Assembly (NCBI GenBank): GCA_017541265.1
Contig: JAFXZK010000010.1
Coordinates: 1 to 33,483, forward strand
Length of the DNA stretch: 33,483 bases
Origin: Bacteroidaceae bacterium
GTDB lineage: Bacteria > Bacteroidota > Bacteroidia > Bacteroidales > Bacteroidaceae
Direction: 5' to 3'
The position numbers were made by a program, and so were the translations under genes. Under the pieces are notes generated by a model. That model was not told where the DNA came from. It made no database searches and saw only the letters and a list, made by a program, of their open reading frames with translations. The first letter of the stretch is position 1. Each line of letters begins with the position of its first letter. Shown here one piece after another: positions 3,617-32,980 of the stretch.

Positions 3617-3741
3617 TTGTTCGGGCGGATTTGCAATCCGCCCGTAGCGGGTATTGGGATTTTTAATCCCGCAAATCATGTTTTATCGCATTGCAAATGC
3701 TCATATTCTTTACTGGCGGATTGCAAATCCGCCAGAACGGA
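3617..3741 (-). repeat. Composite four-hairpin repeat, copy A (d-c-b-a order)
   Basis: Four short palindromes with 3-nt loops lie in a row: d, CGGGCGGATT/AATCCGCCCG (3622-3644); c, GGGATT/AATCCC (3656-3670); b, GCATT/AATGC (3688-3700); a, CTGGCGGATT/AATCCGCCAG (3713-3735). The core spans 114 bp and is bracketed by GTTC and GAAC. It fills the gap between the GH127 and glutaminase genes. Orientation is called minus only because the unit order is the reverse of copies B, E, H and I. Confidence 0.9.
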
Positions 3742-3763
3742 GCCCAGAAAGGGCTGACTGCTT

Positions 3764-3784
3764 ATTGCCCCTTCGGGGCGCAAT
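3764..3784 (-). terminator. Possible terminator hairpin after GH127 gene
   Basis: ATTGCCCC and GGGGCGCAAT pair around a TTC loop with a two-base bulge, 25 bp past the GH127 stop codon. It could end that transcript, but no long T-run follows on the minus strand. Confidence 0.35.
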
Positions 3785-3808
3785 GATAGCTTCCTCAAAC
3801 ATATCTTC

Positions 3809-5830
3809 TCATTTCATTGGCGGGAAGGCTGAGATGCGGAGCCTTGCTGCGCCCATCGGGATGAGTGTTATGTTTTCTGTCTTGCCGCGAGGTGCGTCGG
3901 CATCGGGCAGTATCTGGCAGAGGCCGGTGGAGTCCTGTCCCCAGCCCTCGACACGCGCTCCCTTTGCCTTGACCGTGATGGGCGTGCCTTCGTGGCTCCA
4001 GGGATAGCTATTTTCTGGCCATTTGCCGAACTCCACCGTCATTCCGTCGAGACGGTCGCAGAGCGCGTAGTTCCACGGTGAGTCGGCGTAGATCTCGTAG
4101 GTCGGCCACTTGCTCGGGTCGGCTGTGGCTTGCCAGTGCGAGTCGCCGATAGCGGTCTTGCGGCTGTCTTTTTCTTCGTAGCGTTCCTTTATCTTCAGGC
4201 TCATGGTGAGCGGACCGTAGTTGATGGAGATGCTGTTCTTGTTGAGTGCCCAGACGCGCTTTGTGAGGCGCATCGGGAAGAAGAGCTTCACCACGTCGCC
4301 ATCCGCCCATTCCTTGCTGATGCGGAGCAGGCCGCTACGCACTTTGTGGTCAACGCTTTCTCCGTTGACAGTTACATGCGCCCCCTCTGTCCACGTCGGG
4401 ATGCGCAGGTAGAGCGGGAAGGTTGCGGTCTTTTTCTTGCCCAGGCCAGAGACGACGACCTTGATATCCTCGCTGAAGGGATAGTTTGTCTGTTCGTCGA
4501 GCACAACTTCCTGACCGTTAGCAACCTTGATCTTGGCCGTGCAGTCGCCGTAGATGAGGAGGGCGGCACCGCCGTCGGCACTCGCCAGAACCATGTTCTC
4601 GGCGTAGTAGGGCCAGCCCATCGAGTGGTTATGCTGGCAGCAACGACTGCTGAAGGGGTTCATGCAGAAGAACGGGCCGCCGTTGTCAACGCCCGGATGA
4701 TGGTTGTTTGCGTCGGCCTGCACCTGATTGGGACAGGTCAGGTAGCGCAATGCCCGCATGTCTTCGGTGAGGGCTGCAGGGTAGTCATTGAAGGCGACAT
4801 CCTCGAGGTTCTCCATCCAAAGCAAGTCGCCCGTCTGTGCCATGAGTATCTCGTCCGAGAGCATCTGCTCCACGAAGCCGCAGGTCTCGGTGCCTTGGCG
4901 CGGGTCGATGTAGCCGTGACGGCAGTTCTCGTCACTTCCGAACATGCCTCCGGGTACTTGGCCATAGATGCGACGGATGAGCCAGTAGTTGTTGTAAGTG
5001 GCTTTTAACGCCTTTGGGTCGCCGCTCACAAGGTACCATTCGGCAGGCTCCCGGAAGCATTCGGCGACGTTAACATTGTGCCAGTTGGGCAGTCCGTTTT
5101 CCTGCATCCAGTTGGCTGTGCAGCGGTGAATCTTCTTACAGAGGTCGAGCAGGAAGCTCTCGCCCGTCCTGTTGTAGAGCCAGATGACGGAGAGCAGGTT
5201 GTCGCCGCCACGGCTGTTCTCCCAATAGTCGCGCAGGAACTTCTCGTCGGGGTAGGCGAGCTGCCACTTGTAGTATGCCGTCAGGACGGGCAGGACGCGC
5301 TCGTCGCCGCACCATTCGTAGTAGTCCTGCAGGATTTGGAGCGCCAGCATGTTCGCCCAAAGTTCCCGTCTGCCCTTGTTCTCGTTGACGGGACCAAGGA
5401 AGCCGTCTGCCTGACTGCTGCGGAGGATGCCCTCAATCCAGAACTTCGTCTCGTCGAGCATCGCCTTGTCGTTCAGGATGTAGGCGAGGTTGGCATAGCC
5501 GCGGAGCCAGTATGGCACTTCCTCCCAGCCGTGACTGCCGCCCGGTTCGAGCCACGCATTGCCCTTCTTGTCGAGCCAGTCACTGATTTCTCCGAGCTGT
5601 CCACTCAATCCGTTCTTCTGTCTTTGCAGCATCTCGCCCACCCAGCCACGGGGGATAACGGCTGCAGGAGGCAGCTTGATGAAGGGGTTGGCAGGCAGCG
5701 GGGCGCGGTTGTTGACGTAGAGGGAGGCCGTTGGCTTGATATCGTCGGGCTTCACCATGCGGGATTCCTGTGCTCGAAGCGGCAAATGGAGCAGTATTAC
5801 CGGCAACAGGAAAAGAGTTTTGATGTTCAT
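3809..5830 (-). CDS. GH127/DUF1680 beta-L-arabinofuranosidase-type glycoside hydrolase
   Basis: 673 residues from the ATG at 5830. This start gives a signal peptide (MNIKTLFLLPVILLHLPLRA); an upstream in-frame ATG at 5887 lies before the predicted promoter and is unlikely. The family contains beta-L-arabinofuranosidases with a Zn-bound cysteine nucleophile (Bifidobacterium HypBA1: Glu322, Glu338, Cys340, Cys417, Cys418). The matching residues are visible here: GSDENC with Glu301, GTETCG with Glu315 and Cys317, and SSRCCQHN with Cys397 and Cys398. The enzyme should therefore be catalytically competent and act on terminal arabinofuranosides or a related sugar of plant or glycoprotein glycans. 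The (alpha/alpha)6-barrel region is roughly residues 60-420, followed by beta-sandwich segments. It may be transcribed with the glutaminase-family gene downstream. Confidence 0.88.
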   Translation of the reverse strand: MNIKTLFLLPVILLHLPLRAQESRMVKPDDIKPTASLYVNNRAPLPANPFIKLPPAAVIPRGWVGEMLQRQKNGLSGQLGEISDWLDKKGNAWLEPGGSHGWEEVPYWLRGYANLAYILNDKAMLDETKFWIEGILRSSQADGFLGPVNENKGRRELWANMLALQILQDYYEWCGDERVLPVLTAYYKWQLAYPDEKFLRDYWENSRGGDNLLSVIWLYNRTGESFLLDLCKKIHRCTANWMQENGLPNWHNVNVAECFREPAEWYLVSGDPKALKATYNNYWLIRRIYGQVPGGMFGSDENCRHGYIDPRQGTETCGFVEQMLSDEILMAQTGDLLWMENLEDVAFNDYPAALTEDMRALRYLTCPNQVQADANNHHPGVDNGGPFFCMNPFSSRCCQHNHSMGWPYYAENMVLASADGGAALLIYGDCTAKIKVANGQEVVLDEQTNYPFSEDIKVVVSGLGKKKTATFPLYLRIPTWTEGAHVTVNGESVDHKVRSGLLRISKEWADGDVVKLFFPMRLTKRVWALNKNSISINYGPLTMSLKIKERYEEKDSRKTAIGDSHWQATADPSKWPTYEIYADSPWNYALCDRLDGMTVEFGKWPENSYPWSHEGTPITVKAKGARVEGWGQDSTGLCQILPDADAPRGKTENITLIPMGAARLRISAFPPMK

Positions 5831-5856
5831 AGAGACGTAATTATACATTTCGCGTG

Positions 5857-5888
5857 TAAAGGTACGACTTTTTTTGCCTAAATGCAAG
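5857..5888 (-). promoter_or_regulatory. Putative Bacteroidota promoter for GH127 gene
   Basis: On the minus strand a CTTG box (5885-5888) and TACCTTTA (5857-5864) are separated by 20 bp. This is one mismatch per box from the TTTG / TAnnTTTG consensus. It lies about 27 bp ahead of the ATG at 5830. Confidence 0.55.
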
Positions 5889-5928
5889 GACAGGAGGCAT
5901 TTTCTTAACGAAATAAAGAATTGCTTCC

Positions 5929-6052
5929 TTTGTTCTGGCGGATTTACAATCCGCCAGTATCGAATATAAGCATTTGCAATGCGATAAATTGAGTTTCGGG
6001 ATTATAAATCCCTATACTCAATACGGGCGGATTGCAAATCCGCCCGAACCAA
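5929..6052 (+). repeat. Composite four-hairpin repeat, copy B (a-b-c-d order)
   Basis: Units: a at 5935-5957 (loop TAC), b at 5970-5982, c at 5998-6012 (loop ATA), d at 6024-6046. The core is 112 bp with outer GTTC and GAAC. It is inverted relative to copy A and lies between the GH127 promoter and the end of the 1265-residue protein gene. Confidence 0.9.
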
Positions 6053-6110
6053 ATATGGGAACATGGCAGGAGATAATTTCTTTGAAACAGATTCCTGTTC
6101 CAAACACTCC

Positions 6111-6209
6111 ACGTTGTGTTCATTGCTTTGTCATGACTAAGCAATTGCTTCATCATGACCAAGCAATTGCTTCATCATGACAAAGCAATCAAAGAAACAC
6201 GTTGTGTTT
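6111..6209. repeat. 22-bp tandem palindromic minisatellite with flanking direct repeats
   Basis: Two full copies and a partial third of a 22-bp unit containing the palindrome AAGCAATTGCTT and the palindrome TCATGA lie at about 6128-6189. They are flanked by direct copies of CACGTTGTGTT (6111-6121 and 6199-6209). No gene overlaps it. The rest of the 5831-6301 spacer is copy B, this array and a terminator. Confidence 0.75.
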
Positions 6210-6243
6210 TGCAGGCCACCTTGTCGGGTAGGGAAAAACAAAA

Positions 6244-6275
6244 AGGCGGACCTGGCAAAAGTGCCAAGTCCGCCT
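6244..6275 (-). terminator. Rho-independent terminator of the 1265-residue protein gene
   Basis: Arms AGGCGGACCTGGCA (6244-6257) and TGCCAAGTCCGCCT (6262-6275) pair with one mismatch around a 4-nt loop. On the minus strand the stem is followed by a T-rich run (TTTTTGTTTTT), 27 bp after the stop codon of the gene ending at 6302. Confidence 0.85.
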
Positions 6276-6301
6276 GATAGTCAGGTCAGTAAGATCGATG
6301 C

Positions 6302-9300
6302 TTATTTCTTCACAACCTTGCGTCCGCCGATGATGTTCACACCCTTCTGAACCTTGTTCAGACGCTGGCCAAGCATGTTGTAGATGCCCTTTGCAGCTAT
6401 CGTGATGTTGTTGTTGATCTCGTCGGATTCGATGCCCTTGATGGCGTCGGGATCCTGTACGTCCTTACCGTAGTAAACGAGACGCCAGTTGTCCATTACA
6501 ATCCAGTCGCCAGGAGCAGTCTCTTCGTCGTATTCCTTGTGGATACCGATGGCCACATGACCGGGATCATCCTCTGGAATCTGGAAGACAACCTCGTTCC
6601 AATAGAGGCCGTTGCCGAAGTAATCCTGTGCAGCCTGGGTACAAGCGGAGTAAGGCTGGCCGTTGTATGTGCCGGGCATGCTCAAACCGCCGTAGGTGTA
6701 ACCGATGCCGGGCACCTTGTTGGCCTCGATGTGGATAGGCATGAGAGGCATGGTCTCGCATGCTTCAGGATCTTCGGAGTAGGTCACGGGACCTGCGAAG
6801 ATGTAGCTACGCTGAAGGATAGGTTCGCCGTTGAGAACCTTCACAACGTGTGCCTGCTCGATGCCGTCGCGGTAGTAACCCTGTACCTTCAGCACATAGT
6901 AACCTGCGGGCAGTGCTTCCTCACCCTCGTTGGGCCAGAGTTCCTGACTGTTGTCGAACTCGTTGCTGCTGTATGATTCGAGCACGAAGTTGGGGTTATT
7001 GCCATTGCGTCCCCAAACAGAACCGTTGAAGAACGTCCAATCGTCGATGCTCCAGCGCTGGTCGTAGCCCGGGTTCTTGATGAGGAAGGAGAGGTCAACA
7101 GGATTCTCTTCGCTGGCATTCTTGATGAAGCCAAGCAGTTCTTCGCGGCTGATGAACATCCACTGGTTGGTTTCCAGCTCGGGCGAGTGCATGTCGGTAT
7201 CCACTACATAATAGGAGGGAGCGTACCTGTTGTCGCCGCTGCGCAGGCCAAGATACTTCTTGCCACCTGGCTCGAAAATGGTTCCTGCATAGCAAGTGGT
7301 GTCGGCTTCGCCGAAGGTCTGGCCGTACTGGGCGATGTTATATACATTCGGTTTGCCTTCGACGGGGATGAGTTCCCAGCGGTTGTCGCCCATCGGGCAG
7401 TCGATGTAGCCGTTCCAGCCCATGAAGTCCATTGAACCGAATTCGCCATTGGGACGGAAGGTCTCAATATAGAATGCGCCTTCAATAGGCTCTTCGTCAA
7501 TGATTTCGCCGCTCTCGTCGTCAACAACATCCTTCATTGCCTGAACGAGCATCATCGGGTTGGAGATGTACTCAAGAACGAGGTGTGCACCCCAGTCTTC
7601 GCCTCCACCAAGGAAGTTCTTTGCTCCTACATTATATATATAGTACTTTGGACGCTCATCATCCATTGGGTCAGTATAGCTAAAGTCTACTTCGCCAATC
7701 TCTTCCATTGTGACTGCCTTTGGAACACTGCCTACATAGTTCTCGGTGTGGCGCTCCATGTTGGTAGCCTTGCGTGCCTCGCGCAGAGACTGGAGATACT
7801 TGTTGATGTCGTTTGCTGTTGCACAGGTGTCGAGGGCAGCAGTGACATCTTCGAGTGCAGTGCCCCAATAGCCCTTGTCTTCCATAAAGCGGCAGAGGTT
7901 CCAAGTGTCCTTGAGAACCTTGACATCCTTGCTGTAAGCGAAGATGGCGTTGACATTCGGCCTTATAGAGTCTCTTGCATAGGCTCTCAGCTCTGCTGCG
8001 TCGTTCTTGTTCTCCTGGAAGAATTGCTTGGCTTTTGCAACAATGGCCTTCACGTCTGCACGCATCCTGTTGGTCAGCAGCGTGTCTGTCTCTGCGTATG
8101 CCAGAGCGTCGTTGAACAGCTTGAGGCACTCTTCGTAGTTGACCTCTGTTACGTTGATGCCGCAGTCGTAGAAGTAACCGCCCCAGTTCTGCTGGATGTA
8201 GGTGGCGATGACGTTCTTGCCCACATTGAGGTAGCGTGCAGGAATGTGAACCTGTACGGGGTTCTTGCCGTTGGTCCAGCCCACATTCTTCTGCAGCAGG
8301 ACACCATTGACGTATGTCTCATAGACATCATCGTGGCAGACATTCAGCTCGTAGGAGAGGCGGTCGTTGATCTTGTCAAGCTCGAAGTTACGGCGAATCC
8401 AGTAGTTGGAGCTATTGTAACATGCATCTATGCCGCTTGGCCAAATGCTCTGCTGCTCGGCCATGTAACCTGCGCTGCCGGTAGGCATCATTTGGTTGTC
8501 CCACATAGAATCGTCGAAGTCAACCTGTGTCCAAGCCAGTGTCTCAACGCGACCTGTTATTTCAGGAGCGTCGGCTGCCTCGTAGACGACTTCTTCGTAG
8601 GTGTCACTTTCGCTTTCATATTCTTCCATGTCCTTGGCTTCTCTGTAGTCGCCATTGCCATCATTCAGAGTTTGGTCCCAAACATAGTACTTAGTGACGC
8701 GCTTGTGCATGTCGATGTAGTTGAAGTAGTTTGTGCCAACCCAAAGCTCCACTGCGTCTTCTTCTGTGCTACCTTCTGTGATGTCGAGCAGTGAGAAATC
8801 CTTGAGTGTAACGGTGGCACCTTCTTCGCCGCCGCCAAAGTCGAAGGCAACCTTGAAGTTGAGGTTCTTAGGCTCTTGAGTCTCGGGATCAAAATTCTCT
8901 GTACCATCGAACTCCAATTCTATGAGTGTTCCTTCGTATTCCTCGCCCTCTTCGGGTGCAAGGATTTCGACATCCTCATTGGATGCCAATTCAATGTCGT
9001 CATTGTCGTTGTCGGCGAGCTTTACGGTGACGTTGTTGAAGGGCTTGTCAGTCATCAGTCTAACCTGGAATTTATATGTATGTCCATCCTCAATATTGAT
9101 GGGCGTCTTGAAGTGAAGCTGCTCCTTCCAGTAAGGATCGTCGTCAACGTCATTGAGATCGCTGTTGCCAGGCATCACGAACGAATAAACGTCGCCTTCC
9201 TGTGCCACATAGAGGGCAGACCAGGGGTGCTTGGGGTTGTTGCTGGGAGAAGCGCCGTCGTTGTTGTAGCCACCGGTGTTGTTGAAGAGCACCTTGCCTT

Positions 9301-10099
9301 CCCACGGCGTGGTGTAACCCATGTCGAGGCCGCCTTCAAGCTTGGTGTAGAGACCGCAGTCGGCAAAGGCACCGCCCCAGTTCTGGTGAACGTGGAAGGC
9401 AACCACATTCTCTTCGCCATTCAGCTTGATGAGTGCCTTCTGCTCGTCGGTCAGCAATATGTATTCGGCATTGTTCCATGCGTTGGCGTATGCGATATTG
9501 CCTTCGGTGGTTTCGTACTGACCTTCGAAACCTGTGCGCTGAAAGACAAGTTCGCCATTGATGTAGTACTCGCAGGGAGCATCATCGTGGCCGCAAGCCA
9601 GATAGACAGGGCCGGAGAGCAGCAGATCGGTCGTAAAGGTTCGGCGGACATAGATGTCAGCGATGATGTCGTTGGTCGTCCATCGATAAGAACGCCGCCC
9701 GTTGAATGTCTCGTCAGAGCTGAATGGAGCCGTGTGCTCCTCCCATACGATGGGTTCGAAAGTGTCGCCGTTAAGATCGTCTTCCTTCTCACTCATATCG
9801 AAGCCAGGTTCATACCAACGCAAGCCGTTGGCATCCATAGCAGGACCGGCATCGATGTAATCTTCATCATCCGGTAAGAATCTGCCGCAAACGATGTTGT
9901 AGTTGGGGTTCCAACTGTTCCATTCGCCATAGTTGTTACCTGTGTTATAAACCCAGGTCATGGCCTTCCACTCGATGTCGCCGTCCCAATAGGTGGAAGG
10001 CAACAGAGGAATGTTTGCACCGACGGCAACCAAGCCGTCGCCTGCGCTTGCCATCAACGAGGACAGCGCAAATGCACAAAGAAGTAATGTTTTCTTCAT
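6302..10099 (-). CDS. 1265-residue secreted multidomain protein with two galactose-binding-like modules and a sorting tail
   Basis: The signal peptide is MKKTLLLCAFALSSLMASA. Two beta-sandwich modules share the pattern HDDxxExYxNG ... QNWGGxFxDCG: the first at about residues 130-255 (GHDDAPCEYYING, HQNWGGAFADCGLY), the second at roughly 520-650 (CHDDVYETYVNG, QQNWGGYFYDCGI). Between them lies an acidic beta-rich segment that looks carbohydrate-binding-like. After the second module comes a helical stretch rich in Ala, Lys and Asp (about 660-800). The extreme C-terminus (GIYNMLGQRLNKVQKG, then NIIGGRKVVKK) resembles the type A sorting signal recognised by the type IX system. I see no catalytic motif, so a binding or scaffolding role at the cell surface is inferred. 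It has its own promoter and terminator, so it is probably monocistronic. Confidence 0.8.
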   Translation of the reverse strand: MKKTLLLCAFALSSLMASAGDGLVAVGANIPLLPSTYWDGDIEWKAMTWVYNTGNNYGEWNSWNPNYNIVCGRFLPDDEDYIDAGPAMDANGLRWYEPGFDMSEKEDDLNGDTFEPIVWEEHTAPFSSDETFNGRRSYRWTTNDIIADIYVRRTFTTDLLLSGPVYLACGHDDAPCEYYINGELVFQRTGFEGQYETTEGNIAYANAWNNAEYILLTDEQKALIKLNGEENVVAFHVHQNWGGAFADCGLYTKLEGGLDMGYTTPWEGKVLFNNTGGYNNDGASPSNNPKHPWSALYVAQEGDVYSFVMPGNSDLNDVDDDPYWKEQLHFKTPINIEDGHTYKFQVRLMTDKPFNNVTVKLADNDNDDIELASNEDVEILAPEEGEEYEGTLIELEFDGTENFDPETQEPKNLNFKVAFDFGGGEEGATVTLKDFSLLDITEGSTEEDAVELWVGTNYFNYIDMHKRVTKYYVWDQTLNDGNGDYREAKDMEEYESESDTYEEVVYEAADAPEITGRVETLAWTQVDFDDSMWDNQMMPTGSAGYMAEQQSIWPSGIDACYNSSNYWIRRNFELDKINDRLSYELNVCHDDVYETYVNGVLLQKNVGWTNGKNPVQVHIPARYLNVGKNVIATYIQQNWGGYFYDCGINVTEVNYEECLKLFNDALAYAETDTLLTNRMRADVKAIVAKAKQFFQENKNDAAELRAYARDSIRPNVNAIFAYSKDVKVLKDTWNLCRFMEDKGYWGTALEDVTAALDTCATANDINKYLQSLREARKATNMERHTENYVGSVPKAVTMEEIGEVDFSYTDPMDDERPKYYIYNVGAKNFLGGGEDWGAHLVLEYISNPMMLVQAMKDVVDDESGEIIDEEPIEGAFYIETFRPNGEFGSMDFMGWNGYIDCPMGDNRWELIPVEGKPNVYNIAQYGQTFGEADTTCYAGTIFEPGGKKYLGLRSGDNRYAPSYYVVDTDMHSPELETNQWMFISREELLGFIKNASEENPVDLSFLIKNPGYDQRWSIDDWTFFNGSVWGRNGNNPNFVLESYSSNEFDNSQELWPNEGEEALPAGYYVLKVQGYYRDGIEQAHVVKVLNGEPILQRSYIFAGPVTYSEDPEACETMPLMPIHIEANKVPGIGYTYGGLSMPGTYNGQPYSACTQAAQDYFGNGLYWNEVVFQIPEDDPGHVAIGIHKEYDEETAPGDWIVMDNWRLVYYGKDVQDPDAIKGIESDEINNNITIAAKGIYNMLGQRLNKVQKGVNIIGGRKVVKK

Positions 10100-10143
10100 T
10101 TTGTTTATAGTTTTGGTTAGTACTAATTTGATTATTTTGCCTA

Positions 10144-10174
10144 CAAAGTTAATGCTTTTATCTTTATGTTCAAA
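10144..10174 (-). promoter_or_regulatory. Promoter of the 1265-residue protein gene
   Basis: On the minus strand TTTG (10171-10174), a 19-bp spacer and TAACTTTG (10144-10151) match the Bacteroidota sigma consensus exactly. The expected 5' UTR is about 38 nt. Confidence 0.85.
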
Positions 10175-10191
10175 ACAAAATTATAAAAAAG

Positions 10192-10223
10192 TTTGTATTA
10201 TTTGACATTATTTTATATCTTTG
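10192..10223 (+). promoter_or_regulatory. Promoter of the metallo-hydrolase gene
   Basis: TTTG (10192-10195), a 20-bp spacer and TATCTTTG (10216-10223) match the consensus, 23 bp before the ATG at 10247. It is divergent from, and only 17 bp away from, the promoter of the minus-strand gene. It also excludes the upstream in-frame ATG at 10193. Confidence 0.88.
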
Positions 10224-10246
10224 TGCCAGAATATAACATTAAAAGG

Positions 10247-11050: not shown

Positions 11051-11053
11051 AAA

Positions 11054-11085
11054 GTTAAAGAGTTAAAAGGTTAAAAAGTGAAATC
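11054..11085 (+). repeat. GTTAAA-type short direct repeats after metallo-hydrolase gene
   Basis: Four spaced copies of GTTAAA follow the stop codon. The same motif builds the inverted array at 11301-11428. A fragment AAATCCGCCCG at about 11083-11093 resembles one arm of hairpin d of the composite repeat. Confidence 0.45.
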
Positions 11086-11117
11086 CGCCCGTACAAACAA
11101 AAAAAAGTGGCAAAAGA

Positions 11118-11149
11118 TTTGGCGGATTGAATAAAAGTTCATACCTTTG
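11118..11149 (+). promoter_or_regulatory. Promoter of tRNA-Lys
   Basis: TTTG (11118-11121), a 20-bp spacer and TACCTTTG (11142-11149) match the consensus, 23 bp ahead of the mature tRNA 5' end. The initial sequence CACCCGCAAACAACAAA resembles that after the orphan promoter at 22939. Confidence 0.85.
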
Positions 11150-11172
11150 CACCCGCAAACAACAAAAGCGAT

Positions 11173-11245
11173 GCGTCCTTAGCTCAGTTGGTAGAGCAAT
11201 TGACTCTTAATCAATGGGTCCAGGGTTCGAGCCCCTGAGGGCGTA
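11173..11245 (+). tRNA. tRNA-Lys (anticodon CTT)
   Basis: Full cloverleaf of 73 nt. The acceptor stem is GCGTCCT/AGGGCGT with two G-T wobbles, the D stem GCTC/GAGC, the anticodon stem ATTGA/TCAAT (11199-11203, 11211-11215) with loop CTCTTAA, and the T stem CAGGG/CCCTG with loop TTCGAGC. The anticodon at 11206-11208 is CTT, reading AAG. The discriminator is A11245; CCA is not encoded and must be added. Confidence 0.95.
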
Positions 11246-11251
11246 CAAGGT

Positions 11252-11284
11252 AAAGGGATGAACTGGATGCAGTTCATCCCTTTT
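11252..11284 (+). terminator. Terminator after tRNA-Lys
   Basis: Perfect 13-bp stem AAAGGGATGAACT/AGTTCATCCCTTT (11252-11264, 11271-11283) with a 6-nt loop and TTTT at its 3' edge, immediately after the tRNA. Confidence 0.85.
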
Positions 11285-15665: not shown

Positions 15666-15790
15666 TTGTTCGGTCGGATTTGCAATCCGACCGTATGGAG
15701 TATAGGGATTTGTAATCCCGCAATACTTGTCTTATCGCATTTCAAATGCTTATATTCAATACTGGCGGATTGCAAATCCGCCAGAACAAA
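15666..15790 (-). repeat. Composite four-hairpin repeat, copy C
   Basis: Units: d at 15671-15693 with arms CGGTCGGATT/AATCCGACCG (a fully compensated variant), then c (GGGATT/AATCCC), b (GCATT TCA AATGC) and a at 15762-15784. The core is 114 bp, starting TTGTTC and ending GAACAAA. It fills the gap between ettA and the DUF3737 gene. Confidence 0.9.
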
Positions 15791-19655: not shown

Positions 19656-19848
19656 TTACAATTTAACTATTTACAATGTACAATTTATGTACAATTTAGT
19701 AATTAAACCATTGTTTCATCGCATTTCAAATGCTTATATTAGATACTGGCGGATTGCAAATCCGCCAGAACGAATAGAGCCGTTCGTGTAAATCTTTTTT
19801 TGTCATTGAAATTGTAAATGTCTCAAATTGTTTATCAATTGTACATTG
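19654..19848. repeat. Truncated composite repeat (copy D) within an inverted TACAATTTA shell
   Basis: Only hairpins b (19721-19733) and a (19746-19768), ending GAACGAA, remain of the composite element. On the left (19654-19702) are TTTACAATTTA-type repeats; on the right (19789-19848) are their reverse complements (AAATTGTAAATG, CAATTGTACATTG). The whole gap between the GT5-like and DUF4270 genes is therefore repeat. Confidence 0.75.
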
Positions 19849-20891: not shown

Positions 20892-21168
20892 GAACACAAA
20901 GACACAAAAACACAAAGCTTTTATCTCGAACGCGGATGACTCGGATTGGAGCAAAGCTCGACGATAGTCAACGGATTGACCGTTCTGGCGGATTTGCAAT
21001 CCGCCAGTTGAGAGTATAAGCATTTGCAATGCGATATAATAAGAGTTGCGGGATTGTAAATCCCTATATCCGATACGGTCGGATTGCAAATCCGCCCGAA
21101 CGAGCAGGCGAAATCCGTTAAATCCGTTTAATCCGTGTTCGAAATAAAAACTTCGTGACTTTGTGTTC
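20892..21168 (+). repeat. Composite four-hairpin repeat copy E inside two inverted shells
   Basis: The core runs from hairpin a (20985-21007) to d (21076-21098), 114 bp. d has one arm changed (CGGTCGG against CCGCCCG), leaving a mismatch. Around it are TCGAACGCGGAT (20926-20937) against ATCCGTGTTCGA (21131-21142), and further out GAACACAAAG (20892-20901) against CTTTGTGTTC (21159-21168). This structure fills most of the 494-bp gap between the GT5-like gene and panC; the rest holds the two divergent promoters. Confidence 0.85.
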
Positions 21169-22024: not shown

Positions 22025-22043
22025 AAATAATATAAAATTAAAA

Positions 22044-22303
22044 ACCACGGATTACACAGGTTTAACGGATTAAAAGTTTGGGATTTCTTTCGGATTAAGC
22101 GGATTCTCGCTGGCAGGCGGTCGTTCTGGCGGATTTGCAATCCGCCAGTTGAGAGTATAAGCATTTGCAATGCGATAAAACAGGAGTTGATATCCGATAC
22201 GGTCGGATTGCAAATCCGCCCGAACGAACAAGGGAATCCGTTAAATCCGAGACAAATTGAAGGCCGCTTCAACGAAATCCGTTTAATCCGTTTAATCCGT
22301 GGT
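22044..22303 (+). repeat. Composite repeat copy F (hairpin c missing) in a CCACGGATTA shell
   Basis: Hairpins a (22126-22148), b (22161-22173) and d (22200-22222) are present. The core is 97 bp, 17 bp shorter than full copies, and the missing bases are hairpin c. The outer shell is ACCACGGATTA (22044-22054) against TAATCCGTGGT (22293-22303), with further GGATTAA and TTAATCC units inside. The element fills the panC-panD spacer, so it is probably transcribed. Confidence 0.88.
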
Positions 22304-22320
22304 TTAATAAAAATAATGTC

Positions 22321-22662
22321 ATGTTAATTGAAGTATTGAAGTCGAAGTTGCACCTCGTGACAGTGACCGAGGCGAATCTTAACTATATGGGCAGTATCAC
22401 CATCGACGAGGACCTGATGGATGCCGCAGGTCTTATTGCTGGCGAGAAGGTGCAGGTGGTGGACAATAACAACGGCGAACGGTTCGAGACGTACGTCATT
22501 TGCGGTCCTCGCGCGTCGGGTTGCATCTGCCTCAACGGTGCAGCGGCCCGCAAGGTCCTTGTGGGCGACACCGTCATCATCATGTCGTATGCCCTCATGG
22601 ACTTCGAGGAGGCCCGCACCTTCCAGCCCCGCGTCGTCTTCCCCAAGAACAACCGCGTCTAA
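22321..22662 (+). CDS. panD: Aspartate 1-decarboxylase precursor
   Basis: 113 residues. It decarboxylates aspartate to beta-alanine for panC. The self-cleavage site is seen as NYMGSITID with Gly24-Ser25, at the same position as in the E. coli enzyme; Ser25 becomes the pyruvoyl cofactor. Lys9 (KSKLH), Tyr22, Arg54, Thr57 and Tyr58 (GERFETY) are also conserved, so the enzyme should be active. The length is slightly shorter than the common 117-126. It lies 296 bp downstream of panC in the same direction with no recognisable promoter of its own. Confidence 0.96.
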
Positions 22663-22689: not shown

Positions 22690-22787
22690 TACTGATCACT
22701 AAGACGCAAAGACGCAAAGCTTTTATTTCAACCACGGATTACGCGGATTGAGGGATTGGTCGTTCTGGCGGATTTGCAATCCGCCAG
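22690..22787 (+). repeat. Left half-shell plus solitary hairpin a (copy G)
   Basis: AAGACGCAAAGACGCAAAG and ACCACGGATTACGCGGATT precede a single hairpin a (22765-22787) preceded by GTTC. Hairpins b-d and the right-hand shells are missing, so this is a truncated copy after panD. Confidence 0.75.
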
Positions 22788-22886
22788 TATGGCTAATGAG
22801 TTGACCATCGTCGCGAAAAACACGAATTACATGGCAATTACATGATTAATATAAAATCCAAAGCGAAAAAGAAAAGCAATAAAATC

Positions 22887-23383: not shown

Positions 23384-23841
23384 GAACACAAAGACACGAA
23401 GACGCAAAGGTTTTATTTCACCACGGATTAAGCAGATTAAACGGATTTAATGTTAGGAATTTGTTTCCGATTAAGCGGATTCTCATTGGCAGGCGGTCGT
23501 TCTGGCGGATTTGCAATCCGCCAGTTTAGAGTATAAGCATTTGCAATGCGATAAAACAGGAATTGCGGGATTACAAATCCCTATACTCCATGCGGTCGGA
23601 TTACAAATCCGCCCGAACAAAGGATTCTCATTGGCAGGCGGTCGTTCTGGCGGATTTGCAATCCGCCAGTATTGAATATAAGCATTTGAAATGCGATAAA
23701 ATAAGAGTTTCGGGATTGCAAATCCCTATATCCGATACGGTCGGATTGCAAATCCGCCCGAACGAACAAGGGAATCTGTTAAATCCGAGACAAATTAAAG
23801 CCTGCTTCAATAAAATCCGTTTAATCCGTTTAATCCGTGGT
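23384..23841 (+). repeat. Tandem composite repeats H and I inside a shared CCACGGATTA shell
   Basis: Copy H runs from hairpin a (23502-23524) to d (23593-23615) and copy I from a (23647-23669) to d (23738-23760), both 114 bp. They are joined by 31 bp that repeats part of the sequence preceding H (ATTCTCATTGGCAGGCGGTC). The shell is ACCACGGATTA (23420-23430) against TAATCCGTGGT (23831-23841). A further left arm, GAACACAAAG (23384-23393), has no clear right partner. Confidence 0.88.
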
Positions 23842-23957
23842 TGTATAAAGTTTTATCTTTAACATGTAATTGCCATATAATAGTCCATGAATTGCTCATA
23901 TAATTTTTAATGGTAAATTCGTGGGTCATTACATGGTAATTCGTGTTATTATGATTA

Positions 23958-27200: not shown

Positions 27201-29028
27201 CGTTGCCGTTTCCGGCAAGGCTACCACCTTCTACCAAATAAATGCCGCCGCAAGCTGAGCCAAGAACCCAGTTATATCCGTCACCGTCGGCATCAATGGT
27301 CGTCCATTCGCCGAAAGAACTGTCCTCGAAGTCGCTAACAAACTCACCACCAGCTCCTGCTCCAGATTCCTTGTAGCGGAGGTTGTAGCCTGTTGCCTCT
27401 GCATTGCCAGTCCAGCTGATTTCTGCAGTTTGGGCAGTAACATTGCTTGCCACTATGTCTGTGGGAGCGGGGAAGGCAACGTCGGTTGTGAAGGTAATCT
27501 CATCACTCCACTTGTCGGTTTCACCAGCCTGACGTACTTTTACAATGTATTCTGTCTCGGGGGTAAGACCGGTAAGAGTGAAAGGATTTTCGGGAGCGTT
27601 GACCTCTGTGAAGTCAGCGGCGCCATCGGCCTTATATGCTACCACCCATGCGGTGGCTTCGCCCTTCTCAGTCCAACTCAGCTTAACACTGTTCTTGGTA
27701 ATCTCAGAAGCTGCAAGATTAGCGGGCTTTACAAAACCATCAGAAGCTTCGAAGCTGAAGTCATCCACATACAGATAGTACATGTCGTTGGAGTTGTACT
27801 TGATGGCAACGAACTTGGTGCCTGCGGGACATGTAGTTTCATACTGAGTCCAATTGTCCTTGTCGGTAGCTGTTACCTCGTCCTCCCAAGTGAAGGCGTC
27901 AACGTCCTTGGTTGCTGAGTAACCAACCTGGAATGTCTCGGGGTAGGTTGCGCTTGCAGTCTTGTACCAGAACGATACGTTAATAGGCGCAGTGGTGTCG
28001 AACTCAGGAGAAATCAAGTACTGTGGAGGAGTGGTGTTGTACCTGAATGCGAAGCTATAGGTACTCTCATGGCCGCCGCCGTTAGTGCTGACTCCTGTGC
28101 TTGCATGGCAATCTACGAGTGTCCAAGGGCCAATGCCGTCTTCGAAGCTGTCATTGTAAGGCAGGCTGAGTGCACCATACTCGGTGGTGAAGGTGACAGC
28201 ACTTGACCAGCTGCTGACCTCTTCGCCTTTCTTGGCGCGTACCTTTACGGTATAAGTTGTGCCATAGTCAAGACCAGTCAGTGTGTAAGGATTGTCTTCG
28301 ATGTTCTCGGTAACAACATCGTTCACGTCAATGTCGAAATACTTTTCTTCGCTTACCCAGCTAACAGTGGCTTCCAGACCGCCGTCGTAGTTGACCTTGA
28401 GACCAGTGGGCTTCAGAACGCCGTCGAAACCACCAATAGTGTAAGTGAAGGTGGTCTTGGGGATGAAGTTCTTCTGGTTGGCAGTAACTTCGTCGAGGCT
28501 GTTGCTGCTGTGTCCTTGGATACTTGCGCCTTCAACTTCTGCACCAGCGAAAGAGGCACTCTTATAGGTGCCCTTTACGGTTTGGTACACGCCAACGAGC
28601 AGATTGCCGCCATTATAGGTGTACGGCTGGTCAAACTCGAGAGTCATTGTGCTCTGGGTTGCGTCGAGTGGGCCTTCGAAAACGAGGGTAGCATCGTCAG
28701 TGCCAGAGTAAGCGCTGATTGTAGCTTCGTCCACTTCCTTCATGAACACTTGGAAGTTTCCTCCCCAGGCTACTGATGCGGGAGAGGACAGGTAGAAGGT
28801 CATCTGTGTGATGGTGTTACCTGCCAATGCAGTAAGTTCTGCCTGAGCAATGACAAACTCACTCTTTTGGTAGCTGTCTGCCCAGTAACCTTCTACGGGA
28901 ACGTTGCTACTTGTGGCTTCGCCGTCCGCGTACACGGTAAATTCATCTGCCCTCGCGCCTGTAAGGCTGAAGAGCACAGCGAGCAACATCATAGATGCCC
29001 TCGCCAGGAAAGTAGTTTTTCCTTTCAT
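24205..29028 (-). CDS. Giant secreted protein with FN3 and cleaved-adhesin/choice-of-anchor J domains
   Basis: 1607 residues from the ATG at 29028, which gives a signal peptide (MKGKTTFLARASMMLLAVLF, then SLTGARA). Order of parts (approximate): a GYWADSYQKSEFVIA module (45-200), FN3 (205-295), a choice-of-anchor J beta-sandwich (PYNDSFEDGIGPWTLVD ... YVDDFSF, 300-445), then five more FN3 units. Three of these are interrupted by inserted beta-sandwich domains (for example SDFEDSSFGEWTTIDADG and EDDFNNGLDQWTIVTAGEG). A WNTVYLPFDMTLDEV module (~1400-1560) and a sorting-like tail (WYDLSGRKLSGKPAQKGIYV, then NGGRKVTVK) follow. Related modules occur in Porphyromonas haemagglutinin/gingipain adhesins. 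A surface adhesin exported by the type IX system is inferred. Confidence 0.85.
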   Translation of the reverse strand: MKGKTTFLARASMMLLAVLFSLTGARADEFTVYADGEATSSNVPVEGYWADSYQKSEFVIAQAELTALAGNTITQMTFYLSSPASVAWGGNFQVFMKEVDEATISAYSGTDDATLVFEGPLDATQSTMTLEFDQPYTYNGGNLLVGVYQTVKGTYKSASFAGAEVEGASIQGHSSNSLDEVTANQKNFIPKTTFTYTIGGFDGVLKPTGLKVNYDGGLEATVSWVSEEKYFDIDVNDVVTENIEDNPYTLTGLDYGTTYTVKVRAKKGEEVSSWSSAVTFTTEYGALSLPYNDSFEDGIGPWTLVDCHASTGVSTNGGGHESTYSFAFRYNTTPPQYLISPEFDTTAPINVSFWYKTASATYPETFQVGYSATKDVDAFTWEDEVTATDKDNWTQYETTCPAGTKFVAIKYNSNDMYYLYVDDFSFEASDGFVKPANLAASEITKNSVKLSWTEKGEATAWVVAYKADGAADFTEVNAPENPFTLTGLTPETEYIVKVRQAGETDKWSDEITFTTDVAFPAPTDIVASNVTAQTAEISWTGNAEATGYNLRYKESGAGAGGEFVSDFEDSSFGEWTTIDADGDGYNWVLGSACGGIYLVEGGSLAGNGNGGSQDFVVSGSYSNVEGVGALSPDNWLVSPLVTLGGSISFYAGGQDASYANEYFGVFVSTTSNTDPAAFTQLDAWTLNADGTGTRSSRRKAQGVWGLFTVDLSAYAGQTGYVAIRHFNCTDQFMLNIDDITIVQPVGGEEEPWTVVEGATSPYTISGLTPETKYQVQVQAVYEEGESQWAGKTFTTLEAVPTPSDLVVSEVAKRSAVLSWTENGEATAWEICLNDDEEKAFKADSNPFTLEGLTPETEYTAKVRAINGEKNSRWSAPVSFTTAIAWPVPTDLAASNVTSTSAEISWTADADATGVELQWAEGEAGTKDWYQYDNGTLATSIGLGGGAFYWGVMFPAGSYTGSTLSKVAVYDPKAMEGTITIYNDGDTAPENAVSSVPVTFTGAADFIEVDVNATIDPTKNVWVVVYNESGTDYPASASADTTNDPNGRWISTDGSSWMDVASAGLSGYSWMVRAEIGSDVDPSTLAWTTVDEATSPFELTGLNPETSYAVRVKSIFEDGESQWTITGFKTLTNNPVPYNIAADLVADGATLTWNGEGESYNVQYRSAESTGATFFEDDFNNGLDQWTIVTAGEGPGWVIGTESGGNAATAYSWNGGVSYNADNWLISPAVELGGIVKFTTLTNSSYPDSYEVLLSTTGTETTDFTETLQDMKAATSGEIVTIDLTAYAGQTGYIAIHHVSYDCYLLVIDDFGVYEYIPASAWQEMAVTEKTATISGLATNNLYEYQIQSVKGGSTSEWSKLADFALLTLDSEVDNSDLINTYNGKQAHVTLANRTFYKDGKWNTVYLPFDMTLDEVAASPLADADVRTLTNNITVDGNDVTLNFTAEGEALTTWGGNMFFGGVPYIVKWASGSNIDNPEFANVTITKSKYYVGDDTKVMFVGTYAPIEFTADDTSILFVGADNKLNYPMAGATIGAFCGYFQLVGMTAESGSGVKFYTNLDDEDPTGIAGIETTVETGDWYDLSGRKLSGKPAQKGIYVNGGRKVTVK

Positions 29029-29104
29029 GTTGTTAATAATTAAGTTAAACATATAATTAGTTAATACTTGAATTGCGTACATCCTACTATATGCAAAATC
29101 GAAG

Positions 29105-29136
29105 CAAAGGTAACACTTTTTATGAAAATGGGCAAG
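29105..29136 (-). promoter_or_regulatory. Promoter of the giant FN3 protein operon
   Basis: On the minus strand CTTG (29133-29136), a 20-bp spacer and TACCTTTG (29105-29112) fit the consensus with one mismatch. It implies a ~70-nt leader and supports the start at 29028 over the upstream ATG at 29082. Confidence 0.7.
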
Positions 29137-29286
29137 CGTTTTGCCTGTTTTTTGCCTTTTCTGCCATGTTTATGTATCATTGTTGCATAAATATGACAGT
29201 TTGCCGCACCCATTGAGCACGAAAGCCATATACATCGGCATGGTCAGAAGGTGTGTTCCATCTCGTCCGGCTAAATCCAGAATAAT

Positions 29287-29314
29287 AGAAGGACGCACCT
29301 CGGTGCGTCCTTCT
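29287..29314 (-). terminator. Terminator of the C10 peptidase gene
   Basis: Perfect stem AGAAGGACGCACC/GGTGCGTCCTTCT (29287-29299, 29302-29314), seven bases after the peptidase stop codon, followed on the minus strand by ATTATT. The spacer 29029-29286 otherwise holds only the next promoter. Confidence 0.75.
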
Positions 29315-29321
29315 TTTGGGG

Positions 29322-32300
29322 TCACTTAATCATGAACTTCTTGCCGTCCTTGATGTAGATACCACGAGGTAATTTACAATTTGACGATTTACGATTTATA
29401 ATTTGGCCGGCAAGGGTGTAGCAAGCCCCCTCCCCGCTCCCCCCTTTGGGGAGTGCTTCTATGCCGTCGGGGTCGTCTTCGCCGAAGGTGAGGGCAAACT
29501 GCTTGACGAGGCTGCCGCCGCTGAGCTGGAAGTAGGCACGCTGTGCTCCGATGGTGGCACCCAGCAGGGGATGGTGGAGCTTGTTGCCGCTGCCTATGAA
29601 AAGGATGCTCTGGTTCTCATCCGTGAAGGTCGTGCCGGTGTATGTGCCCTTGAACTGGACATTGCCGTCGGTGCTGATGACCTTTTGGTCGTCGGGGTCT
29701 TCGCTGCTGATGGTCACGCCTGCGAATGTGGGATTGCTGATGGGTTCGCCCTCCTGCTCCCACTTCACGAGGTAGGCATGGCCTGCTTCAATCACAGAGG
29801 CAGGCACAAAGTCGAGTGTGAGCGTGCCGGTGCTTGCGTCGTAGCCTGTGCGGCATGCCCCGCTGTTGCCCAGCTCCATCATTGTGGCGCCTTCAAGCGG
29901 TGTGCCGGCCAGGTCGCTGAGGTTGAAGGGCAGGCAGAGGGTGTTCCAGTCGCCATCCCTGTAGAGGGTGCGGCCTTGCAGTGTGACGTTGCAGTTTGCC
30001 TTGCCGTGGAGGGATGCAATCAGGTCGGCATTGTCGCCGCTGTTGGCAAGCTCCAGCAGGAAGGCGGCATGGCAGTCCACATGGTATGCAACGGGTTCGG
30101 CCAGCTTCTTCTTGCCGGAGAAGATGAGGTTGCCTGCCACGTCGTAGGCGGCATAGACGCACTCGTGGTCGTAGCTGCCCTTTACCCACTGGAACTCGAT
30201 GTCGCGGCCATCGGGCACTTCGACGTCATAGACCTGTGCCTCGTTCTTCTTTGCCGCATTGGTGTTGGAGAAGGTGCCAAGCTCTGTGCCAGTCAGGACA
30301 TCCACCACCTTGATGGCTGCACCGTTCCAGCCGTCGCCCATGAGGTCGGTCAGCTCAAGGCGTATTTGGCATGTCTCGTAGGAGAGGTTTGTGGTGAAGC
30401 TGACGGGTTCTGTCCATTCGCTCACCTCGTCATCTTTCCGCGCGCGTACCTTTATTATATATGTCGTGGCAAGTTCGAGGCCCGTCAGCGTGCAGGGGTT
30501 GCCGACGCCCTCCGTCACAGTGCCGTTCACATCGATGTCGAAGGACGTGTCATCGCTCGTCCAGCTCACTGTGGCTTCGTCGCCTCCGGTGTAGCTGACA
30601 GCAAGGTGTCTGGGCTTCCTCACGAACGTGACGTCGCCCGGCGTGAAGTCGAAGGTTGTCTTGGGCCGGAAGTTCTGCTGGCTGATGCTTGCACCGTAGC
30701 CGCCCACTGAGACGCCGTCGATGAAGTCGCCCTGCCAGTTACTCTTCACATAGCTGCCCGATACGGTCTGGTTGACGCCGACCAGGAGGTTGCCGCCCTC
30801 ATAGAAGAACGGCTCGTCGAAGGTGATGGTCATCTTCTTGTCGACGATGGAGAGGCTGCCGGAGTAAACCTTCTCCAGTGTGCTCCAAGATTTCAGGGAA
30901 GAGATGGTGCTTTCCTCCACCATCTTCAGATAGACGTCGAACTGGGCAGCTCCCCAGCTGACGGAGGACTGCGAAGCATAGAACGTCACGCCTGTGAGGG
31001 TACCGTAGAGCATGTCCTCCAAGTCTGCCTCGGCGATGATGAACTGGCTCTTGGAATAGTTGTCTGCCCAGTAGCCATAGACGGGCACGACCTCGTTGGT
31101 GAGGCTTGTCACCACGTTCAGTGTTGCCGTCAGGTCGCTGTTGCTGTAGTATTCGCCCTCGGCATTGACGAAGCAGAAGGTGAAGATGTATGTGCCAGTC
31201 TGTGTGGGTGTATAGGGTATGACAACGTCCTGTGTCGCCCCGGCAGGGATGACGACGCTTTCGCACTCGATGAGGTAGTCGTCGTCCTCTTTCCTCAGGC
31301 AGAGCCAGATGTCGCCGTCGTAGGGGTCTGTGCTGTTGTTGGTGACGTTGAAGGTGACTTCAACCTGTGTGCCAGGCTCAACAGGTGTGTCGCTCAGCGT
31401 GATGCTGTTCAGCGTGAGGTCGTTGGCGTTGGGTTCAATGTCGGCTGTTGTGCCGGTTGCCGTTGACCTCTGTATGCCGACGACAGCATCCTGTCCGTAG
31501 TGGAAGCCGTCGGTGGATGTGCTGCCACCGATGCCCTGCTGGTCGGGGTCGAGTGCCGAGAGCACGAAGTAGTTGTCGCTCAGGCCGCCCCATCCCCAGT
31601 TGATGTGGAAGAAGTCGGTGTTCATCTCGAACTTGTAGCCGTCGCACACGAACTCGTGTCCGCCGCCGTCGGACAGTCCGCCGTAGCAAACAGGGCGCTT
31701 GTGCGAGACCTCGTGGTAGATGAGGTCAGTCCAGTTGGCGTATGTGTAGGAACTTCGCGACACGAATCGTGTGGTGTAGGGGTTGTAGTCGAAGTACTCG
31801 CGGAGGCCAATGGCGACATCCTCGGTGTAGGCGCCGGAGGAGGGGCCGTACATCATCTTGACGGAATAGCCGCAATACTGCATCAGCGTAGCCACGGCTG
31901 TTGCCTCGGTGGTTGTGTAGCTGCCGGAGTAGCTGTCCTTCATGTGATCCCAGTCGAAGGTGGTGACGGGCAGGGAGGACAGGTTGTAGTCAGAGGTTGT
32001 GTAGCCAGGAATGACCTTTGTCGATTGTGCCGGCCATTTGTGGTAGTACATCACCTGTGCCATCGCCGTTGCCACGCAGCCGGTGGCGCACCTGCCGCCG
32101 TAGTATGTGGGGCAGAGGTTGTTGTAGGGTGTGCCTTGGTTCCAAGTGGAGGTACACAGCGGTGCGACGGCTGTGGTGGGGTGTGTGCCGACCTTGCTGC
32201 GCGGCATGTTGGACTTGGGTATATCGCTGCCGTGCTCCTTCAGCCATGCTATCTCGTCGGCATAGCCCTGTAGCCACGCCCGCATATTGTCGGGCATGTT

Positions 32301-32618
32301 GTCGGGGTCGAAGCTGCCGCTCTCGCCGAAGCCGAGGATGGGACGTGTGCGGTCTTCGTTAGAGACAACGACGAATCCGTCGTCGCCCTCTACGTTGAAC
32401 ACATAGAGTCCGCTCACCTTGCCAGCCAGTGTGAGCTGCGGCGTGGCGCCCTGTGCATGGCGCGGACTGCTGGAAGAGGTTTTCTTGCTTGCCAAAAAGT
32501 TCAGAGCCTCCTCAAGGGCTTGCTCTGTCGTTACGTCCTCAGCCCAGATGCCTGTCGTGCAGAACAGGGCGAGGAGCAGTGTCATCACGGTGTGTGTGAA
32601 GTTCGTTTTTGCGTTCAT
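29322..32618 (-). CDS. C10 family (streptopain-like) cysteine peptidase with adhesin-type C-terminus
   Basis: 1098 residues from the ATG at 32618 (MNAKTNFTHTVMTLLLALFC signal peptide); the promoter position rules out the longer frame. A Spi-type propeptide (about 27-140) precedes the peptidase domain. Catalytic Cys181 lies in GCVATAMAQVMYYHKWP and His321 in GGGHEFVCDGY; Asn340-Trp341 are in HINWGWGG. This matches streptopain and prevotellain, secreted proteases made as inactive precursors. Then come a CARDB-like beta domain (~395-490), a GYWADNYSKSQFIIA module, FN3, a beta domain, a WNTLCLPFNL module and a sorting-like tail (RGIYIKDGKKFMIK). The segment before the tail (ALPKGGSGEGA; INRKSSNCKL) is encoded by repeat-like DNA. 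It probably acts with the neighbouring adhesin at the cell surface. Confidence 0.9.
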   Translation of the reverse strand: MNAKTNFTHTVMTLLLALFCTTGIWAEDVTTEQALEEALNFLASKKTSSSSPRHAQGATPQLTLAGKVSGLYVFNVEGDDGFVVVSNEDRTRPILGFGESGSFDPDNMPDNMRAWLQGYADEIAWLKEHGSDIPKSNMPRSKVGTHPTTAVAPLCTSTWNQGTPYNNLCPTYYGGRCATGCVATAMAQVMYYHKWPAQSTKVIPGYTTSDYNLSSLPVTTFDWDHMKDSYSGSYTTTEATAVATLMQYCGYSVKMMYGPSSGAYTEDVAIGLREYFDYNPYTTRFVSRSSYTYANWTDLIYHEVSHKRPVCYGGLSDGGGHEFVCDGYKFEMNTDFFHINWGWGGLSDNYFVLSALDPDQQGIGGSTSTDGFHYGQDAVVGIQRSTATGTTADIEPNANDLTLNSITLSDTPVEPGTQVEVTFNVTNNSTDPYDGDIWLCLRKEDDDYLIECESVVIPAGATQDVVIPYTPTQTGTYIFTFCFVNAEGEYYSNSDLTATLNVVTSLTNEVVPVYGYWADNYSKSQFIIAEADLEDMLYGTLTGVTFYASQSSVSWGAAQFDVYLKMVEESTISSLKSWSTLEKVYSGSLSIVDKKMTITFDEPFFYEGGNLLVGVNQTVSGSYVKSNWQGDFIDGVSVGGYGASISQQNFRPKTTFDFTPGDVTFVRKPRHLAVSYTGGDEATVSWTSDDTSFDIDVNGTVTEGVGNPCTLTGLELATTYIIKVRARKDDEVSEWTEPVSFTTNLSYETCQIRLELTDLMGDGWNGAAIKVVDVLTGTELGTFSNTNAAKKNEAQVYDVEVPDGRDIEFQWVKGSYDHECVYAAYDVAGNLIFSGKKKLAEPVAYHVDCHAAFLLELANSGDNADLIASLHGKANCNVTLQGRTLYRDGDWNTLCLPFNLSDLAGTPLEGATMMELGNSGACRTGYDASTGTLTLDFVPASVIEAGHAYLVKWEQEGEPISNPTFAGVTISSEDPDDQKVISTDGNVQFKGTYTGTTFTDENQSILFIGSGNKLHHPLLGATIGAQRAYFQLSGGSLVKQFALTFGEDDPDGIEALPKGGSGEGACYTLAGQIINRKSSNCKLPRGIYIKDGKKFMIK
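29371..29456. repeat. Two repeat-type segments inside the C10 peptidase coding region
   Basis: 29371-29404 is an AATTTACAATTTGACGATTT-type sequence like the shell around copy D. 29425-29456 is a CCCCCTCCCC...CCCCTTTGGGGAG sequence like the C/T-rich inverted repeats elsewhere. Both are read in frame just before and within the sorting tail. Confidence 0.6.
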
Positions 32619-32678
32619 CTTGTATGGTTTAGTCTTGTTGTTTGCAAATACAATTGTCCGAAAGGTACAAATCGGGCG

Positions 32679-32710
32679 CAAAGGTACAACATATAATTCA
32701 AATAACCAAA
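32679..32710 (-). promoter_or_regulatory. Promoter of the C10 peptidase gene
   Basis: On the minus strand TTTG (32707-32710), a 20-bp spacer and TACCTTTG (32679-32686) match the consensus exactly. The leader is about 55 nt and the upstream in-frame ATG at 32795 is excluded. Confidence 0.85.
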
Positions 32711-32731
32711 AAACGAAAATCAAAAATGTTT

Positions 32732-32980
32732 GTAGATGGAACACAAAGGCACAAAGGCGCAAAGACACGAAGAATTGCGCCTGAAATGTAGGCACTTAGA
32801 GATGCCCTTTCATAACCTATAGGATGTGGGCTTACGAGGCGATGTTGCGGGATTACAAATCCCTATATCAAAAAGCGGGCGGATTGCAAATCCGCCCGAA
32901 CGTAGGAAGGGGTAACATGTTCTGGCGGATTTGCAATCCGCCAGTGTCGAGTATTAGGATTTGCAATCCGCCAGAACAAA
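32732..32980 (+). repeat. Rearranged composite repeat, copy J, with left half-shell
   Basis: GAACACAAAGGCACAAAGGC-type repeats (from 32732) are followed by hairpin c (32849-32863) and d (32876-32898), then a separate hairpin a (32922-32944) and a truncated hairpin GGATT TGC AATCC (32957-32969) ending CGCCAGAACAAAG. This looks like two copies partly deleted and joined. It fills the gap between the C10 promoter and the mutase gene. Confidence 0.8.

Follow-up and report, generated by a model that had tools for sequence, protein, structure and literature searches.

Four-hairpin repeats of a Bacteroidaceae genome as probable miniatures of a small RAYT transposon

What kind of element is it that recurs, as a set of four hairpins, along a 33,483-nucleotide (nt) stretch from a Bacteroidaceae bacterium (GCA_017541265.1, contig JAFXZK010000010.1, positions 1-33,483; this whole stretch is called the window below), and by which means may it have spread? 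The original prediction for this DNA saw a family of the repetitive extragenic palindromic (REP)/bacterial interspersed mosaic element (BIME) type or of the miniature inverted-repeat transposable element (MITE) type, possibly moved by a REP-associated tyrosine transposase (RAYT). Our analysis supports this view in that a RAYT does lie beside the same hairpins, and recurrently so in Bacteroidota, while movement itself is what we infer. The element is, very probably, a non-autonomous miniature transposon of the REPIN (REP doublets forming hairpins)/TIRtron type that consists of the left end (LE) and the right end (RE) of a small RAYT transposon, with the gene (rayt) deleted. What speaks for this in the sequences is RAYT linkage, hairpin covariation, a lack of detectable target duplication, element-free sites, a deletion derivative and whole RAYT units in another genome (G418, see below).

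The family is real and genome-wide. A profile search over fetched stretches of the source genome found at least 79 non-overlapping places on 43 contigs, 61 of them near-complete (copy counts are lower bounds, as the search covered those stretches and 40 of 103 candidates were scored), so that the repeat is not confined to the window, and a 15-base hairpin pattern gave 200 matches in this genome versus 0 for its reversed control. Every copy consists of two unlike ends, LE and RE, which face each other in inverted orientation, contain two hairpins each and have GTTC...GAAC borders. In oriented form, GTTC is followed by an outer hairpin, a linker, a GCATT-type inner hairpin, a short middle, a GGATT-type inner hairpin, another linker, the second outer hairpin and GAAC; the outer hairpin has a 10-bp stem, a 3-nt loop and the GTTC border, and the inner hairpins differ between LE and RE. 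This order is kept in 59 of the 61 near-complete copies (median length 120 bp, range 103-137), with GTTC at the start in 51 and GAAC at the end in 55. To refine the earlier view, we take the four hairpins as the left and right ends of a RAYT unit, unlike each other and joined together, rather than as four separate REP units. Three copies (C17 7500-7690, C67 47714-47907, C113 18933-19127) represent a longer variant, in which the inner RE hairpin contains an insert of about 80 bp that is similar among the three; their outer flanks differ. Among partial copies (long variants and the LE of rayt excluded), model ranges show that 9/11 retain LE and 2/11 RE; one LE partial stops at a contig end, and some partials are hybrids.

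A Y1_Tnp search of the source genome returned four genes, one of which passes the RAYT model while three fail. This gene (contig C42, 178 aa) scores 101.3 bits with the NCBIfam model NF047646 (curated cut-off 80) and encodes the motifs NHLH, WQ and YIHQNP; H55, H57, W119 and Y140 are invariant across 37 aligned sequences, its own included. With the curated IS200 model NF033573 it reaches 22 bits, short of the cut-off of 55, and its sole solved-structure match at E up to 0.1 is TnpArep 4ER8 (E 0.0014). An LE lies directly upstream of the gene, and truncated LE pieces followed by a complete element lie downstream, so a RAYT-like gene flanked by the same hairpins, as the original prediction had proposed to look for, exists in the same genome. 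The tandem truncated end pieces that adjoin it (L033, about 1150-1240) have counterparts in the tandem LE pieces of L040 and L045. Another locus (L034, 1099-2487) encodes a 462-aa Y1-type protein with an internal repeated segment that scores 22.8 bits versus a Pfam cut-off of 23.

Linkage extends to relatives. Among the named RAYT loci, the best 80 of 509 confirmed, which are all labelled Bacteroidota or a subgroup thereof except L113 (Chlorobiota), hairpins with an ATTnnnAAT core occur within 400 bp upstream of the RAYT in 57, downstream in 62 and on both sides in 51. Such hairpins number 212 in 61,177 flank bases versus 22 in 297,483 bases farther off, and loop orientation is LE-type in 80/98 upstream and RE-type in 85/114 downstream. 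A search free of stem sequence found hairpins upstream at 43 and downstream at 57 of 88 loci (both sides, 35), where mononucleotide shuffles expect 0.0; this set combines the 80 named loci with the source genome's own and 7 of the 10 in L116-L125, leaving out L117, L122, L124 and the fragments L126 and L127. Bordered LE-rayt-RE units of 676-711 bp came from nine distinct loci among 19 searched:

L035: RAYT unit, 695 bp
L037: RAYT unit, 684 bp
L039 (same sequence as L117): RAYT unit, 683 bp
L041: RAYT unit, 676 bp
L042: RAYT unit, 683 bp
L044: RAYT unit, 701 bp
L045: RAYT unit, 686 bp
L119: RAYT unit, 711 bp
L120: RAYT unit, 702 bp

Their borders co-vary, being GTTC/GAAC or, in L044 and L045, GCTC/GAGC. 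Beside the L041 unit there is a short copy whose end matches the last rayt codons plus the 3' flank at 34 of 38 nt (next-best placement within the unit, 19/38), and a second short copy matches at 29/38. Judged by this match, the L041 short form is an internal deletion of the RAYT unit that kept the 3' end of rayt.

Whole units in several copies were found in STF2_138, another Bacteroidales genome (G418; L055, L057, L060) and a metagenome-assembled genome (MAG), where RAYT units of some 700 bp share 91-98% identity. Our search of it retrieved four full units (100% for the query itself, then 98, 94 and 93% identity), a 431-bp copy truncated on its 5' side, two pieces interrupted where their contigs end (345 and 127 bp) and numerous end pieces. 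The flanks of the four units, which lie on three contigs, align locally with scores of just 12-27 (no shuffle control), and the same ends recur, in different flanks, on two short forms of some 170 bp that lack rayt; L055 holds two intact RAYT frames (181 and 182 aa). Near-identical units in different surroundings fit, and would be consistent with, a mobile unit. We lean, with distinctly less confidence than in the nature of the miniature itself, towards RAYTs of this type (subclass 2.6, see below) still being true transposons, whose LE-rayt-RE would move as a whole while rayt-less miniatures spread alongside. The borders in L055, L057 and L060 read CCGTC...GACGG, reminiscent of a CGTC tag described in PMC3733652; this is only a lead, and CGTC-tagged repeats are said there to have no dedicated transposase.

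Back in the window, the element occupies 11 sites, seven near-complete (103-120 bp) and four partial:

3619..3738, minus strand: complete element, LE toward high coordinates
5932..6049, plus strand: complete element
15668..15787, minus strand: complete element, flanked by a DUF3737 gene and a gene for an ABC-type ATPase
19710..19771, minus strand: LE half alone (model 1-61)
20982..21101, plus strand: complete element upstream of a panC-like gene (named by eye from its translation)
22123..22225, plus strand: near-complete element with a 17-bp internal loss, in the gap between the panC-like gene and panD (PF02261) and inside a CCACGGATT repeat
22762..22800, plus strand: outer LE hairpin alone (model 1-38)
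23499..23618, plus strand: complete element that opens a tandem pair whose flank is duplicated
23644..23763, plus strand: complete element, second of the tandem pair and the copy used for folding
32842..32901, plus strand: RE half alone (model 61-118), the sole window copy overlapping an intrinsic-terminator-like match
32919..32977, plus strand: LE half joined to an RE-type GAAC border, a hybrid short form (model match 32920-32979)

The six complete copies lie where the original prediction had put them, extended by a border G and C (to 3619-3738 and so on). Its total of ten sites becomes 11, as the copy at 22126, listed as partial, is near-complete and the one at 32849 resolves into two separate partials. 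Linkers are conserved rather than random, and the six full copies can be aligned over their entire length, linkers included. The density is, as claimed, well above chance: 32 strand-hits of the outer hairpin (up to 3 mismatches, most hairpins being counted on both strands) versus 0.04 expected, and 7 near-complete copies versus 0.63 (Poisson P 4.5e-6). The latter P applies to a window chosen for its copies, and as the genome count of 61 behind the expectation is a lower bound, 0.63 is too low. Moreover, at least three copies (22123, 23499 and 23644) have flanks in common, so local duplication adds to the window's density. A second, larger palindromic repeat, AACCACGGATT...AATCCGTGGTT, encloses several copies (22040-22325, 23415-23865 and around 20982); other genomic copies of this repeat are without the element.

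How is the element distributed beyond its source? Across 61 genomes of the genus, RAYT matches occur in 2 and the element in 4, three of which have a single copy; a 17-base hairpin pattern is found in 3 of the 61, with 81 matches in the source genome, while two further genomes have one apiece. Across 301 genomes of the family, the 15-base pattern is present in 37 and RAYT matches in 12 (two being fragments). The pattern goes with the gene, occurring in 9/12 RAYT-positive versus 28/289 RAYT-negative genomes (p=4e-7) and, with the source genome excluded, in 8/11 RAYT-positive ones (p=2.6e-6), both values uncorrected for kinship. Comparing occupied with empty sites, which the original prediction had suggested for strains, yielded two element-free sites in relatives. 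The flanks of 15668-15787 match as a single piece in at least 24 of 139 genus genomes with no more than about 50 extra bases (manual count), and the element is absent from this site in the 11 genomes aligned (ten of the 24 plus G053, matched from base 91). Similarly, panC and panD, 296 bp apart in the window, match as a single piece that covers almost the entire query, with no more than 49 extra bases, in at least 30 of 61 genomes (manual count), and five genomes with a larger gap have no core hairpin in it. In four relatives (L225, L226, L236 and L224) another insert occupies the panC-panD gap, and in it short AT-rich repeats enclose what appears to be an open frame (by eye).

These data bear on the strongest alternative, which sees resident sites of the REP/BIME type, retained for host functions (RNA stability at 3' ends, binding of gyrase or nucleoid proteins) and of ancient mobile origin. 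That copies are mostly intergenic would suit such sites: the claim that all of them are is nearly right, as 3 of the 61 near-complete copies lie within an open frame that extends 150 nt or more to either side (crude open-reading-frame calls, no gene finder). So would their gene settings on the same crude calls, with 37 tandem and 11 convergent versus 8 divergent (5 at contig edges), though no genome background accompanies these numbers, and so would stable folding: copy 23644-23763 folds into a long hairpin whose tip carries both inner hairpins (z -9.35 as DNA, at -33.7 kcal/mol, and z -10.43 as RNA). The near absence of the element elsewhere in the genus (4/61 genomes) and the element-free sites argue otherwise, as does covariation, which favours separate end hairpins. 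In an alignment (A2) of 52 of 59 copies, the 7 with larger indels being left out, the four local hairpins covary with double-sided changes in 8 of 31 pairs and 35 cells versus 10.0 in shuffles (0/500); the copies are related, so the shuffle result is not a probability. No inner-hairpin pair changes on both sides in these 52 copies, hence covariation support stems from the outer hairpins. An end-to-end stem as the selected fold was rejected, as its 35 cells versus 32.5 in shuffles (178/500) are no excess. Altogether, host-kept sites strike us as improbable.

The immediate surroundings of the copies bear on our preferred reading, the RAYT-moved miniature. In 59 of the 61 near-complete copies used for this purpose, the first G is invariant; 90% have a pyrimidine just before it and 96% a purine just behind the final C; neither an excess of direct repeats at the borders (k=2,3,4,5,6,8) nor a palindromic extension past them was detected. 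Local hairpins would form while the DNA is single-stranded, the RAYT encoded elsewhere in the genome would bind border plus hairpin and then cut, and the element may thus be moved without target duplication to places with pyrimidines before and purines after its borders. If a guide rule tested in PMC8266576 for one REPtron applied by analogy, the GTTC border would predict a cut at GA. A classical MITE, whose terminal inverted repeats serve a DDE transposase, would share these repeats and the short middle; we consider it highly unlikely and rejected it on the missing target duplication in the 59 copies (DDE transposase genes were outside the searches made), and the same kind of ends recurs on RAYT-sized units. 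Just as unlikely is a structured RNA or intrinsic terminator dispersed through duplication. It would suit the covarying hairpins and the proximity of some copies to the 3' ends of genes (median 39 bp, 59 ends), yet copies take both orientations (33/26 on contigs) and have ends in common with RAYT units. Among RNA candidates, one tRNA is the sole window match to Rfam at gathering scores, and a terminator-like match (stem then T-run) overlaps just 1/11 window copies.

Several observations weigh against a RAYT-moved miniature or narrow it. The source genome's own RAYT has no private RE directly downstream, the next RE being part of a complete short element. Among named loci, 23/80 lack a core hairpin upstream and 18/80 downstream, loop orientation is opposite in 17/98 and 25/114 hairpins, and common descent may explain the correlation between RAYT and hairpin distances (r=0.28, p=0.0002, n=43). 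Ten of the 19 loci searched gave no further clean RAYT-sized unit: L036 has short forms alone, L038, L040 and L043 have longer spans, L117 repeats L039, and L046, L048, L050, L116 and L122 show nothing with the bordered-unit pattern. Hairpins and gene also part company in places, as G027, G036 and G053 have one copy each with no RAYT match at E<=1e-20, G128, G176, G178 and G297 have at least 10 hairpins with no RAYT match at E<=1e-15, and the RAYT-bearing G096, G255 and G331 have no pattern match, their flanks (L123, L121, L118) showing other stems. The exact empty target sequence could not be read from same-genome repeat copies or relatives' alignments, and when a relative's RAYT unit was used for an empty-site search, just the three occupied genomes among 139 matched. 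One RAYT position is common to three species of the window's genus (L116, L120, L122), so RAYT looks stably inherited there. As for STF2_138, two units have 7 and 4 bases in common beside their borders, and the co-occurrence of its units could reflect misbinning of the MAG.

How, then, does the element compare with known systems? IS200/IS605 elements have a Y1 HuH transposase and subterminal hairpins and make no target duplication. Our element and its RAYT are alike in all three, and differ in that the present ends are inverted repeats and the gene stays at 22 bits versus the NF033573 cut-off of 55. By its features the RAYT resembles TnpAREP subclass 2.6 (= group 5), for which PMC6006769 tabulates NH[LIV]H, WQ, YIH[QN]NP and about 179 aa, all found in the 178-aa protein (NHLH, WQ, YIHQNP). 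Further likeness to this subclass lies in its occurrence in Bacteroidota and in non-GT[AG]G structures that flank the gene and recur at other places in the genome; atypical flanking structures have already been noted there. According to the same source, REPtrons do not transpose as a unit. PMC3733652 describes TIRtron/TIRYT loci, in which terminal inverted repeats, some of them called double palindromic, enclose a RAYT-like gene; some have dispersed families and dimers. A RAYT-like gene between long terminal inverted repeats is what we find in relatives, the source genome's own RAYT being without a private RE; the GGGGWSAS motif of some of these repeats is absent from its LE (by eye), and the TIRtron account names no TIRtron from Bacteroidota. 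To REPINs, as portrayed in PMC3116915, the element is similar as an extragenic, RAYT-linked inverted doublet of palindromic ends with tandem clusters that include flanks, and one copy forms a long hairpin (its stem does not covary). The canonical REP 5' foot, GT[AG]G, was not found, as most copies start with GTTC, and the present element further differs in its unlike ends, each with two hairpins, and in the existence of rayt-bearing units with such ends. In open-licence literature on RAYTs and REPINs in Bacteroidetes and on TIRYT, no other description was recognisable by title or abstract, so the kind is known while the anatomy and the parent/offspring relation were not found described there. 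What appears newer is the two-hairpin anatomy, the putative origin by deletion and a genome whose four full RAYT units stand in apparently unrelated flanks. A border unlike that of REPs would offer a new substrate for studying hairpin recognition by RAYTs. For REPINs, descent from the ends of an IS200-like element has been suggested (PMC3116915), and if our reading is true, a subclass-2.6-type unit with its miniatures would be the parent/offspring state proposed for that origin, in living genomes. Parent-type units and miniature offspring are directly comparable here, and a lineage in which RAYT units and rayt-less miniatures have common ends would make REPIN origin testable by sequence and experiment.
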